64,000 nt of DNA from NCBI GenBank assembly GCA_947629315.1, contig CANRDB010000005.1, positions 1 through 64,000 of the forward strand. The letters run 5' to 3'. Numbering within the stretch: position 1 is the first letter of the stretch; the number at the start of each line of letters is the position of its first letter. The position numbers and the translations under genes were made by a program. The DNA is from an uncultured Bacilli bacterium (GTDB lineage: Bacteria > Bacillota_I > Bacilli_A > RF39 > UBA660). Shown here one piece after another: positions 4,317 through 62,991 of this stretch. Under the pieces are notes generated by a model that did no database searches, was not told the DNA's origin, and was given only the letters and a program-made list of their open reading frames with translations.

Positions 4317-4356
4317 AAAAAAGGATAATCTTTCCATCCTCGAAATTAGATTATCC
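4317..4356 (-). terminator. Rho-independent terminator of the 652-residue gene
   Basis: On the minus strand GGATAATC pairs with GATTATCC across an 18-base loop, followed by TTTTTT. The left arm overlaps the stop codon of the unknown protein gene. Confidence 0.65.
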
Positions 4357-6309
4357 ATTTACCCTTTTATCACTTGGATAGAACTTCTGTTTCACCTTTG
4401 GTGAAGACTCTAACTTTTCCTCATAACTAATTGTATAGTCTAATTGGTTTTCATCCATTCGATATCGCTGTAACAATTCTGTTAATGTTTTTTTATCTTG
4501 CAAGACATGATTCAGATATGTGGCATCCGGAGTGCCAGATTCTAATTCTTGCATTAATTGGGTAGAAATATCATCTTTCTTTTCGTTATTCTTCGCATAG
4601 TAATAGTTCGATACTAATAACTCTTTTAGAAATTCCATACATTTTTCTGGTTGTGTCTCATGTAATTGCTGCAAATACTGTGCCGTTTTTGGTGCTCCGT
4701 GTGTATCTAAATAGATATAAAAATCACTCTCACTATATAGTTTACAGTAAGCACTCTCCGTAAGACAACTAGGGTCTAAATTCATCAATCGTGTTAACAT
4801 GGCTGTTCCCTCTAATCGTCTAACAATCCGTTTATGATGATTTTTTCCTAATGACATCATTTCAAAATAACTTGCAATATACCGAGGATACCCTATCAAG
4901 AATAGGGATTGAATATTCGCATTCGTCAAATCAGCATATATTAATCCCTCACAGATAAACCACTCATCAATATCTATTGAACCAACCGTTTGAAAATTCA
5001 CTTTCTCTAAATATTTGCGAGAAAGATATCTCATCAATAGATTTTGGTAATGTTTCATACCTACTTTAGATAGTTCATATGGTTTAAAAGCCTCTTCTGC
5101 CTTTTGAGCGTTCATCGCTATCTCATAAATTTCTTCGGTATAATCGACTGGATGGTTGCGTTTAACTTCCATCAATAACTGATCAAAAATACGAGCAATT
5201 GGTTTTCCCACATACAGAATATTTAGTTCCACTTGTGGTTTCGTATAGAGAGGATCCATCATTTCTATTCTTTTTTGAGCATTCCGATCTTGAATTTTTT
5301 CTCGTTCTTCAAAAATCTTGCCACCCCGTAAAAAATACTCCCGGCAGAAGAATTCTACACAGTCAAAGACATACTCTTTATTACACCAAAAACTTTCCGT
5401 AATGACCTCAAAATTCGCATCGGGATGATTTAATAATTTTAATAGTTCTTCATCCTCTATCGTAAGTACACTAGTTGCCATCTGTTGACCATCTTTTGTA
5501 ATGGGTGTCTGTTTAGCTTGACATAAAAAAGCATAAACATAACTCATGAAGAAACCGATAAAATCATCAATATCATCTTTATCTTGATAAACATCCTCTA
5601 AATAATTGAGAATCGTCTCAAACAATTCTTGTTGTACTTGTTCTAAAATTTCTAGTTCTGAAGAAATTTCCTCTTCTAACTCTTCCTCATCTAATTCTTC
5701 ATCCTCATTCAAATAAACCAAGTCAAACGAATACGACTCTTCCTCTTCTTCAGGATGATATTTCGCATAAACATCATCATAAATTAATGCAATTTCATCT
5801 AAAACACCAATATAACTTTCATATCTTGCCAATTCATCATAAAAGATAGTAGGTTCTTCTTGAATATACTCTTGACAATCTAAAATAAATTGTTTTGGTT
5901 GTGTTGTATAAACAAAATAATCTAGCAATAAAGTTCTTACTTTCAATTCGTTTTTAGCATCATGGAAATATCCTTGTAACTGTCCAATAGAAAAAGGTAA
6001 GTCCTCTAACTCTGACATAATTTCTTCTTCTAGTGGGGAAGTAGCATGCATCGTTTTCACATAGCGCCAATACTGATAAACCGTAAAAATAATATCAATA
6101 ATCATATCATGTCGGTAAAGTTCTAACTCTTCGGGTCTTATTTCATACGTATAACAAAGTTTCTCTGCCAATAAATACTTGGAATGTTCTTTTCCCATCA
6201 AAAAATCATACATCATATCGAGTAATTCTTCATCGGATAATTTAGCATGTTCATTATAGAGTTTCACCAATAAATCCCGTGCGAAATCCAATCTATTTTT
6301 ACTATCCAT
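4351..6309 (-). CDS. Unknown 652-residue acidic, soluble protein
   Basis: I do not recognise this protein. It starts MDSKNRLDFARDLL, has no signal peptide and no convincing membrane span, and looks alpha-helical throughout. An acidic stretch (about residues 188-225, rich in EEE and DEEELEEE) interrupts the sequence; the last 20 residues are basic. There are no P-loop, zinc-ribbon or catalytic motifs that I can see. It is flanked by soj and by the orphan ncRNA, and has its own promoter (6338-6366) and terminator, so it is probably monocistronic. Ribosome-binding site is GGGGG seven bases before ATG. A helical-repeat scaffold is possible but unsupported. Confidence 0.85.
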   Translation of the reverse strand: MDSKNRLDFARDLLVKLYNEHAKLSDEELLDMMYDFLMGKEHSKYLLAEKLCYTYEIRPEELELYRHDMIIDIIFTVYQYWRYVKTMHATSPLEEEIMSELEDLPFSIGQLQGYFHDAKNELKVRTLLLDYFVYTTQPKQFILDCQEYIQEEPTIFYDELARYESYIGVLDEIALIYDDVYAKYHPEEEEESYSFDLVYLNEDEELDEEELEEEISSELEILEQVQQELFETILNYLEDVYQDKDDIDDFIGFFMSYVYAFLCQAKQTPITKDGQQMATSVLTIEDEELLKLLNHPDANFEVITESFWCNKEYVFDCVEFFCREYFLRGGKIFEEREKIQDRNAQKRIEMMDPLYTKPQVELNILYVGKPIARIFDQLLMEVKRNHPVDYTEEIYEIAMNAQKAEEAFKPYELSKVGMKHYQNLLMRYLSRKYLEKVNFQTVGSIDIDEWFICEGLIYADLTNANIQSLFLIGYPRYIASYFEMMSLGKNHHKRIVRRLEGTAMLTRLMNLDPSCLTESAYCKLYSESDFYIYLDTHGAPKTAQYLQQLHETQPEKCMEFLKELLVSNYYYAKNNEKKDDISTQLMQELESGTPDATYLNHVLQDKKTLTELLQRYRMDENQLDYTISYEEKLESSPKVKQKFYPSDKRVNG

Positions 6310-6378: not shown

Positions 6379-6408
6379 AAAAAAAGACAGCGTTGACTGG
6401 ACGCCATC
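6379..6408 (-). terminator. Rho-independent terminator of the orphan ncRNA
   Basis: GATGGCGT, loop CCAGTCA, ACGCTGTC (8 pairs, two of them G-U) followed by seven U. It is G+C-rich compared with its surroundings. Confidence 0.85.
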
Positions 6409-6697
6409 CTAGTTTGAATCAATCTCCTTTTTAGTCTTAAAGGTGACTGCCTATTCGAAGTTTTCTTTCTCCATATAGCTATATACTTAATAGATAATAA
6501 GACTCTTTTTCAGAGCATTCATATATAGTAGTATTCTTCATACTAATATATTAAAGGACAAGCATATATATTATTATCGTAATATATATTTTTTGATTAA
6601 TAATAATTGATAAGTGAACTCCAATCCCTATTTTATAAATAGTTTTCTTTGCTTTGCTTATTTTTTTATTACTAATTGCTTGTCTGTTCTATTAAGT
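6379..6697 (-). ncRNA. Orphan structured non-coding RNA, ~319 nt, family not recognised
   Basis: A 465-base stretch without a gene that carries a complete transcription unit: consensus promoter (6704-6732) and strong terminator (6379-6408). The RNA has long-range pairing: ATACTTAATAGA at its 5' end (6688-6699) is perfectly complementary to 6483-6494 (12 bp), and just inside it GACAAGCA (6677-6684) pairs with TGCTTGTC (6557-6564). Local hairpins inside include TAGTAT/ATACTA near 6540, GCTCT/AGAGT near 6510 and an A+T helix near 6575-6595. A 3' domain (6482-6409) precedes the terminator. Only very short frames without ribosome-binding sites occur. I find no RNase P, tmRNA or SRP signature. Confidence 0.7.
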
Positions 6698-6703
6698 ATC
6701 TTA

Positions 6704-6732
6704 AATATACCACAGTTTTTTCTATTTTTCAA
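6704..6732 (-). promoter_or_regulatory. Sigma-A-type extended -10 promoter of the orphan ncRNA
   Basis: Minus strand: TTGAAA, 17-base spacer, TATATT, preceded by TGG (extended -10). Predicted start near 6697-6699, exactly at the 5' arm of the outer helix. It lies just after the typA terminator. Confidence 0.75.
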
Positions 6733-6742
6733 CATATTTTTT

Positions 6743-6776
6743 TAAAAAAACAGATAATTTTTGTCAATTATCTGTT
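6743..6776 (-). terminator. Rho-independent terminator of typA
   Basis: AACAGATAAT and ATTATCTGTT form a 10-bp stem with an 8-base loop, followed by a T run, overlapping the typA stop codon on the minus strand. Confidence 0.85.
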
Positions 6777-8589
6777 ATAACCCTTTTTTACTGTCTAATT
6801 TTTTACGCTCTGCCGTGTTGAGTATCTTTTTACGCATCCGATAACTATGAGGAGTTACTTCTACTAATTCATCATCATTAATATAATCTAAACATTCCTC
6901 TAAACTCATTTGCCTTGGTCTTTTTAATACTACTGTATGGTCCTTACTTGAACTTCGAGTATTCGTTAAATTCTTTCCTTTCACAACATTTACCGCTAAA
7001 TCGTTTTCATGATTATTTTCACCAACAATCATTCCCTCATAGACATCTACACCAGGTTCGATAAACATAACTCCCCGATCTTCTAATCCACCTAAAGCAT
7101 ATGCGGTAGACTTTCCATTCTCCATAGATACCAATACACCAAATTTACGATATCCAATCATCGCTCCAGCTTCCTTACGATATTCCTTATAGGTATGGTT
7201 CATAATTCCATATCCTTTCGTCATCGTCATAAATTCTGTCATAAAGCCAATAAGTCCTCTAGTTGGTACAGTATATTGTAATTTTACTTGATTTTCAACT
7301 GTTTCCATATTTTCCATAATTGCTTCTCGATTTCCTAATGCTTCAATAACTGAACCGACATATTCCTCAGGAACATCAATTTGTAAATCTTCGTAAGGTT
7401 CACACATGACTCCGTTAATCTCTTTCCGAATAATCTGTGGTTTGGAAACCTGTAACTCAAACCCTTCTCGACGCATATTTTCAATTAAAATAGAAAGATG
7501 AAGTTCTCCTCTTCCTGATACAATATAAGACTCTGAATCATTTTGTACCACTTTTAAAGAAACATCTCGCTCCGTCTCTTTCATTAATCGCTCTTCAATT
7601 TTACGAGCAGTAACAATCTTTCCTTCCCGTCCACAGAAAGGAGAAGTATTCACGCCAAAGGTCATCTGCAAAGTAGGCTCATCAATATGTAATAGTGGCA
7701 ATGCTTCCTCTTTTCCGACATCACAAATAGTTTCTCCTACTGAAATGTCAGGAAGTCCAGCAATCGCTACGATATCTCCTGCTTCCGCACTTTCCACTTC
7801 AATTCTCTTTAGTCCTAAAAAGCCATAGATTTTTGCAATTCTAAAAGATTTTATGGAACCGTCTATCCGAACACAACTAACCATTTCTCCTACTTTCATC
7901 GTTCCTCTTTTGACACGACCAATACCAATTCTTCCCACGAAATCATTATAGTCTAAAAGCGCTGGTTGAAATTGAAGAGAACCTTCTTTATCAACGACAG
8001 GCTCTGGAATATATTCAATAATCATATCTAAGATTTTTTCCATTCCTGGTTCTTGGGTTGATACATCTGGATCAAGAGAAGAAGTTCCGTTAATAGCAGA
8101 ACAGTAAGCAACTGGAAAATCTAAATCATCCACATCTGCTCCTAAATCAATAAATAAATCCATAACCTCATCCACTACTTCTTTTGGACGAGCAGATTCT
8201 TTGTCAATTTTATTGACAATCACAATTGGTTTTACTCCAGCATCCATTGCTTTTTTCAAAACGAAACGGGTCTGTGGCATCGTTCCCTCATAGGCATCTA
8301 CTACTAGTAGTACTCCATCTACCATATTCATAATACGTTCTACTTCTCCACCAAAGTCAGCATGCCCTGGTGTGTCTAAAATATTAATATTATAATCTTT
8401 ATAATGAATAGCTGTCGTTTTCGCTAAAATCGTGATACCACGTTCTCTTTCAATATCATTAGAATCAAGAGCACGTTCCTGTACTTCTTCATTCGCACGA
8501 AAAGTTCCAGAAGAAGATAATAATTGATCAACTAAAGTCGTCTTTCCATGGTCTACGTGAGCAATAATGGCAATATTTCTCTTTTTCAT
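6775..8589 (-). CDS. typA: Translational GTPase TypA/BipA
   Basis: 604 residues, the usual length. G1 [12 protein letters not shown]2 region RERGITI, G3 [12 protein letters not shown]4 NKID are all present, followed by EF-G-like domains and the TypA-specific C-terminal region. TypA binds the 70S ribosome in place of EF-G and assists 50S assembly under cold or other stress. It is transcribed alone: a terminator follows at once and an unrelated gene lies upstream. Confidence 0.97.
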
Positions 8590-10385: not shown

Positions 10386-10502
10386 GCTTTCTCTCCTTCC
10401 GCCATGACTGAAAATCCAGCCATAGATAATTAATACGTTCCTATTGTAGCAAATATTTTTTGGAATTGCAATACATAAAAAAGTAAACATTTACGTTTAC
10501 TT

Positions 10503-51410: not shown

Positions 51411-51439
51411 TTGCTTTTTTTTTTAAAATAGTGTATATT
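51411..51439 (+). promoter_or_regulatory. Promoter of the SRP RNA gene
   Basis: TTGCTT, 17-base spacer, TATATT; predicted start about 51446-51448. It starts ten bases after parS site 1. Confidence 0.7.
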
Positions 51440-51447
51440 ACGTATTA

Positions 51448-51525
51448 GCACAACACCTATACTCGAAACAGGTCAGGACCGGAAGGTAGCATCCTTAAGA
51501 GTCACTGAGTGTGTGTGCTTTTTTT
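51448..51525 (+). ncRNA. ffs: Signal recognition particle RNA, small bacterial (4.5S-like) form
   Basis: The core GGTCAGGACCGGAAGGTAGC (51471-51490), with GGAA tetraloop, is the SRP RNA domain IV signature bound by Ffh. Flanking strands pair to make one hairpin: GCACAACAC at the 5' end with GTGTGTGTGC at the 3' end, followed by a T run that terminates transcription. At about 71 nt plus the T tail it lacks the Alu domain found in the ~270-nt Bacillus RNA. Confidence 0.92.
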
Positions 51526-51526
51526 A

Positions 51527-51542
51527 TGTTTCACGTGAAACA
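51527..51542. other. parS site 2
   Basis: A second perfect TGTTTCACGTGAAACA, centred 142 bases from parS site 1 and one base after the SRP RNA T run. It ends 17 bases before the tadA ATG and overlaps its leader. Confidence 0.93.
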
Positions 51543-62778: not shown

Positions 62779-62991
62779 ATTCAAAGGCGAAGAAAGAAAG
62801 AAGAATAAGGAAGATTATTTAGAGAACTTGGATAGGTGAAAGCAAGTTAATTGGAATTATTTCGAATGGGTCTGGAGCTTTTTATAGGAAAGTATAAAAC
62901 GTATACCGCGTTAAGGTTTGAGTGTATAAATTTATTTATAAATTAAGGTGGTACCGCGTCATCACGTCCTTATGTTGGACGTGATTTTTTT
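62779..62991 (+). promoter_or_regulatory. T-box riboswitch, methionine specifier
   Basis: Stem I with apical GGTGAAAGC (62834-62842) and, on its 3' side, the specifier loop CGAATGGGTCTGGAG in which ATG (62866-62868) is the Met codon; then the universal T-box AAGGTGGTACCGCG (62945-62958), which would form the antiterminator with uncharged tRNA, and a terminator ATCACGTCC/GGACGTGAT with T run (62961-62991). Uncharged tRNA-Met should thus permit read-through into dut and metG. The specifier agrees with the downstream synthetase. Confidence 0.93.
62961..62991 (+). terminator. T-box-controlled terminator
   Basis: ATCACGTCC, loop TTATGTT, GGACGTGAT, then TTTTTT; alternative to the antiterminator formed by AAGGTGGTACCGCG. 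Confidence 0.9.

Follow-up and report, generated by a model that had tools for sequence, protein, structure and literature searches.

A diverged relative of PGK RNA encoded by a standalone gene in uncultured gut Bacilli, with a pseudoknotted core and a putative homodimer palindrome

The window analysed here (a 64-kb stretch of DNA, taken as a whole) contains an RNA gene of ~320 nt which, as judged from its sequence, is real, independently transcribed and structured, and is a diverged relative of PGK RNA (RF03040). The window RNA represents a second subfamily of PGK RNA, the T-type, with the palindrome UAGCUA. It is likely to be a constitutive, standalone RNA of the PGK superfamily that has a pseudoknotted core, docks its hairpin P5 onto its terminator, forms a homodimer through the palindrome and probably acts as a scaffold.

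The RNA gene and its transcription signals

The RNA gene lies between typA (6775–8589) and a gene for a 652-aa protein (4351–6309), both on the minus strand, and homologues were found between the same two genes in four relatives (G001, G004, G008, and G009). Its features are listed in Table 1. The window comes from an incomplete MAG, whose gut Bacilli lineage is close to the rabbit-gut 'Lapin' MAGs.

A first-pass annotation had described a structured RNA that has a promoter and a terminator of its own; the sequence elements, the folding energy, and the homologues at the same locus all agree with this description. The promoter, with its upstream TG, was confirmed at the claimed place. A scan of this A+T-rich stretch yielded 11 consensus promoters versus 8.9 expected, which is not above chance by itself; near-consensus promoters are also present at the equivalent place in relatives. 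The quality of the promoter, taken alone, suggests high expression. The strong terminator was likewise recovered and consists of AGGATGGCGT-CCAGTCA-ACGCTGTCTT and a T-run. The window RNA folds at −74.9 kcal/mol versus −49.2 ± 4.15 kcal/mol for dinucleotide shuffles (z = −6.19), and both of the helices initially proposed, one of 12 bp starting at the predicted +1 and one of 8 bp in the 5′ domain (around 6684–6677 with 6564–6557), are present in the MFE and centroid structures. ORFs overlapping the transcript are all of 43 aa or less, in line with the claim that no meaningful ORF exists. The earlier description centred on the 5′ part of the transcript and was incomplete in this respect: the 3′ third is equally important, and the 5′ domain differs widely in length and sequence among relatives.

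Ordinary Rfam matches in the window comprise a T-box leader (62781–62974), a small SRP RNA (51437–51533), and an L31 leader (10393–10425). As identities for the RNA gene, SRP RNA (matched at 51437 of the window), 6S RNA (matched elsewhere, at G000:C4), RNase P RNA (matched elsewhere, at G000:C2), and tmRNA (no match in the 64-kb window) were rejected. No tRNA was found in the 64-kb window.

Table 1. Predicted features of the window RNA gene and the evidence on which each is based
Feature	Positions	Strand	Basis
Sigma-A type promoter TTGAAA-17-TATATT, extended −10 TG	6704–6732	−	TTGACA/TATAAT-like sequences in the corresponding position of relatives, selected independently of pairing
Whole RNA gene (~320 nt), predicted +1 to terminator	6379–6700	−	Fold; homologues in G001, G004, G008, and G009
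Helix P1, 5′ strand AUACUUAAUAGA, transcript start	6688–6699	−	Fold, pairing in relatives, covariation
Helix P1, 3′ strand UCUAUUAAGUAU	6483–6494	−	Fold, pairing in relatives, covariation
Pseudoknot stem PK, 5′ strand CUUAUU	6496–6501	−	Sequence variants, compensatory changes, covariation
Pseudoknot stem PK, 3′ strand AAUAGG	6450–6455	−	PK loop holds the P1 3′ strand
Palindrome AUAUAGCUAUAU, proposed homodimer contact	6473–6484	−	Palindrome counts, covariation, homodimer energy
Hairpin P4, GGAG-AAAGAAAA-CUUC, conserved A-rich loop	6457–6472	−	Comparison of relatives
Hairpin P5, loop GACU at 6436–6433	6420–6449	−	Fold, comparison of relatives
Conserved single-stranded motif AAACUAG, before terminator	6409–6415	−	Comparison of relatives
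Intrinsic terminator, loop AGUC (6398–6395) complementary to P5 loop GACU	6379–6410	−	Sequence
Variable 5′ domain with internal helices (e.g. 6684–6678 with 6563–6557)	6510–6687	−	Fold, relatives
Match to Rfam PGK RNA RF03040, 27.9 bits, sub-cut-off	6430–6508	−	Permissive covariance-model search

The pseudoknotted core

The 12-bp helix (P1), originally regarded as the outer helix, is real and covaries in relatives, but it is more than a closing helix: because its 3′ strand resides within the loop of the PK stem, the two helices form a pseudoknot. This pseudoknot is absent from the Rfam model, which includes only the 3′ strand of P1.

To define the 5′ partner, the promoter at each locus was chosen without regard to pairing (most were near TTGACA-17-TATAAT) and set the +1 segment. 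The complementarity of this segment to the P1 3′ strand was matched by at most 1 of 50 shuffles in 68 of 94 RNAs, and the mean pairing score was 16.4, versus 6.6 for shuffled sequences and 10.3 with a partner taken from another genome. Approximately 60 sequence variants of P1 (e.g. UUGCUUAGU/GCUAAGCAA, UUGUCUAGU/GCUAGACAA, GUUUAGAG/CUCUAAAC, and UUGAACCUAG/CUAGGUUCAA) and 50 of PK were observed. Thirty diverse RNAs were also aligned in spliced form, with the 5′ segment, selected by promoter and not by pairing, joined to the core; the covariation score over the P1, PK, P4, and palindrome pairs was 0.362 versus 0.191 ± 0.013 for shuffles (0/500). The slid-partner control for the same alignment gave 0.07–0.13 and is free of the inflation by relatedness to which the shuffle comparison is open. 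Among nine T-type sequences, 17 of 27 pairs show compensatory change. At the level of sequence comparison, these data establish the RNA gene, P1, PK, P4, and the constraint on the palindrome.

Relationship to PGK RNA

The RNA had been presented as an orphan belonging to no known family, with a search of Rfam as the suggested check. This search gave no match at the RNA locus at the gathering thresholds, but a permissive e-value search gave PGK RNA as the best match, located in the 3′ third of the transcript; its score of 27.9 bits is below the gathering cut-off of RF03040 (50.8 bits). Other permissive matches at the locus (e.g. PyrR) were dismissed as chance. No PGK match in the source genome scores higher, and the same-locus copies likewise rank first in G008 and G004, which is why the match is not regarded as chance. 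The PGK-matching stretch also coincides with the most conserved stretch in the DNA search. Relatives from the same bacterial family exceed the RF03040 cut-off, and intermediates that pass it link the window RNA to PGK RNA: the T-type copy in G377, which is closely similar to the window RNA, scores 50.9 bits with RF03040, just above the cut-off, and 116.6 bits with the T-type model R1, in whose training set it was itself included.

The PGK consensus stems, CUuauC/GauaAG and GAG/CUC with an A-rich loop, have their counterparts in the window stems CUUAUU/AAUAGG and GGAG/CUUC, with compensatory changes. The window RNA thus shares with PGK RNA the PK stem, the P1 3′ strand region, the palindrome, the A-rich hairpin loop, and the following hairpin, and differs from it in having GACU instead of CUGAUAA in the P5 loop and in its sub-cut-off score. 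The orphan status is therefore replaced by that of a diverged subfamily of the PGK superfamily, which the Rfam model misses. That model spans 92 nt, lacks the P1 5′ strand, the 5′ domain, and the terminator, and is typed as cis-regulatory. No mention of RF03040 was found in the literature searched, and the PGK RNA of uncultured gut Bacilli is little studied.

Distribution of the two subfamilies

PGK RNA was found in 79 of 385 genomes of the order, representing 24 genera, and all matches fell within one family. PGK matches in a class-level sample were confined to the same family; a phylum-level sample gave none, and the control was also silent there. Detection was limited to a part of the family, about a quarter of the 385 genomes, which means either that the RNA is not essential or that it is often too diverged to be found. 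Two PGK-like matches (L018 and L025), both inside a pta gene, were dropped as chance.

Strong PGK matches (63–78 bits) were obtained in 5 of the 12 genomes of the window's genus, at a locus other than typA; these five copies (L013–L017) belong to the S-type and adjoin spoIVA and, mostly, also a penicillin-binding protein gene. The other five genomes of the genus with a detectable copy all carry it at the typA locus, and the two types were never found together in one genome within this genus. Between the core and the terminator, T-type RNAs, including the window RNA, have a single hairpin, whose loop is GACU, and S-type RNAs have a CUGAUAA hairpin and often one more. Model R1 matched in 33 of the 385 genomes (16 genera), the weakest matches being intermediate forms or cross-matches to the S-type.

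Both types are carried by G078, G082, G198, G388, G233, G291, and G296, and their S and T palindromes differ in all seven. Exclusive pairing within each type would predict such a difference, although simple divergence could also explain it. Two genomes (G309 and G394) each contain two S-type RNAs arranged in tandem, ~300 nt apart (L179, L190; L184, L193).

Gene context

Copies of PGK RNA adjoin unrelated genes, and the window RNA is a standalone RNA and not a pgk leader, because the neighbours differ from genus to genus. They include pgk, murG, lepA, efp, spoIVA, HU, and acpS (gene names read from protein sequences), and several of the next genes are located on the strand opposite to the RNA. 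In genera other than that of the window, acpS is a frequent neighbour of T-type RNAs and is located on the other strand. Only G063 and G327 have pgk downstream; they represent one genus among those examined and account for the Rfam name; the window RNA, at its place after typA, is not upstream of pgk.

That the RNA is a cis-acting leader regulating its downstream gene, in the window the 652-aa gene, is very unlikely. The cis-reg type label in Rfam and the presence of pgk on the same strand in g48 genomes speak for this explanation, as does the distribution of the 652-aa gene, whose homologues follow the RNA in each of the five genomes of the genus with a T-type copy and are absent from the other seven. 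Nearly all copies read, however, end in a terminator of their own, the 652-aa gene is preceded by a promoter-like sequence of its own, located past the RNA (6366–6338), and neither the changes of neighbour between genera nor the opposite-strand genes fit a leader. The terminator is located ~100–190 nt past the core start in most copies; the terminator scan was too strict in its stem and loop rules and missed g33 and others, for which direct reading shows the UUAUCAG hairpin.

The homologues of the 652-aa protein (28–39% identity) are found in exactly these five members of the genus, always right after the RNA. The protein has no Pfam family at cut-off. Because no homologue was found beside the T-type RNAs of other genera, the link is kept as a note only: the protein may be a partner of the RNA or may simply reflect shared ancestry.

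A symmetric palindrome and the proposed homodimer

A palindrome is located directly after P1, CAAUUG in most S-type RNAs. Relatives also have CGAUCG, GCGCGC, UACGUA, CAUAUG, CACGUG, UGAUCA, UGUACA, AUGCAU, and GAAUUC, so that at least ten different sequences occur with the symmetry kept, their centres being AAUU, AGCU, GAUC, ACGU, AUAU, UAUA, UGCA, CGCG, and GUAC. Palindromes of at least 8 nt were present in 73 of 93 sequences (~9 expected) and those of at least 10 nt in 44 of 93 (2.4 expected); ~10 of the 93, mostly from one sub-branch, have no palindrome. The T-type copies found later with model R1 (L239 and L251 left out of the readout) add UGGCCA, ACGCGU, CAGCUG, GUACGUAC, and AACUAGUU, and serve as an independent check since they were found after the idea was formed. 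The g43 RNAs (L203 and L219; G303 and G356) lack the palindrome and have an apparent second core-like element, GGGGAAGGAAAACCCC, ~230 nt downstream.

In the 30-sequence alignment, the palindrome helix is paired in 97% of cells, and its two adjacent central columns switch together (AU in 21, CG in 6, and GC in 3), which a single chain cannot explain because adjacent columns cannot pair intramolecularly. With ViennaRNA, the window palindrome segment had no monomer fold and a homodimer energy of −15.7 kcal/mol. Switching palindromes are also a signature from which symmetric loop–loop dimers have been deduced in GOLLD RNAs. In OLE RNA, switching among GGCC, GAUC, and AGCU backs the dimer contact (PMC12286853), and the covarying, symmetric palindrome by which such contacts are recognised in OLE, GOLLD, and ROOL RNAs, with the criterion of the same study, is present here. 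Together, these observations suggest that two copies of the RNA join as a homodimer through the palindrome.

In a standalone RNA that works as a monomer, the palindrome would instead fold into a short hairpin or, at the DNA level, be bound by a dimeric protein. A weak hairpin of 4–6 bp with a 4-nt loop is conceivable for some of the palindromes, and protein sites are commonly palindromic. A 4-nt hairpin loop, however, need not be palindromic, whereas the centre here takes at least nine palindromic forms; at a protein site the sequence itself, and not its symmetry alone, would be conserved; and the window palindrome forms no monomer hairpin. We consider the monomer improbable and retain the homodimer.

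A wider reading, to which we give slightly less than an even chance, is that PGK RNA has been misread as a pgk leader and is one fragment of a two-subfamily class of small (~200–500 nt) homodimeric RNAs, whose S and T paralogues in the same cell keep distinct palindromes and thereby pair only within their own type. If true, few natural RNA dimers would be smaller or more diverse in sequence.

Proposed loop–loop docking and a model of assembly

Complementarity between the loops of P5 and the terminator is kept as both change, with the pairs CUGAUAA/UUAUCAG in most S-type RNAs, CUGACA/UGUCAG, CUAGUAA/UUACUAG, and GACU/AGUC in the T-type, including the window RNA. This points, less strongly than in the case of the core helices, to pairing of the P5 loop with the terminator hairpin loop; in the window RNA the contact comprises only 4 bp (−4.4 kcal/mol).

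Exposed loops could also target mRNAs in trans, as in a base-pairing regulatory sRNA, and such a function would be compatible with the RNA's own promoter and terminator and with the conserved sequences of the A-rich loop AAAGAAAA and the P5 loop. It is nonetheless unlikely: conservation is strong in the internal structure but does not extend to the freely varying 5′ domain, and the P5 loop would already be engaged by that of the terminator.

In the scaffold model that we prefer, folding would begin once the 3′ third is transcribed. The 5′ end would then form P1 by pairing inside the PK loop, generating the pseudoknotted core, and the loop of P5 would dock onto that of the terminator hairpin. 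Two molecules would pair with each other through their palindromes, next to P1, and the resulting symmetric homodimer would probably serve as a scaffold for a protein or ribonucleoprotein. The scaffold role, suggested by likeness to OLE RNA, is the weakest step.

These results turn a family labelled as cis-regulatory into a standalone RNA gene, supply its missing 5′ half and pseudoknot, and add a subfamily. They also provide a structural clue for an uncultured lineage of gut bacteria whose genomes are small. As a natural signature of RNA self-pairing, the palindrome, which takes well over ten forms with its symmetry kept, is very clear, and it offers a cheap test for natural homodimers.

Comparison with other standalone RNAs

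The window RNA is about half the length of OLE RNA. Both are standalone structured RNAs with a palindrome that switches between palindromic sequences, and the palindromic loop of OLE RNA is a dimer contact by cryo-EM (PMC12286853). Unlike OLE RNA, the window RNA belongs to a lineage restricted to one family of gut Bacilli and has no known protein partner; the two share no sequence match, and no Rfam match to the OLE, GOLLD, or ROOL sequence families was found at the window RNA. The raiA motif RNA/ModT (RF03072) was rejected as an identity, with no covariance-model match in the window or in eight genomes of the family (the genome-search control was silent). The raiA motif RNA/ModT is a standalone Bacillota RNA with pseudoknots and its own terminator (PMC11706538), and the window RNA resembles it in being standalone and pseudoknotted and in ending at a terminator of its own.
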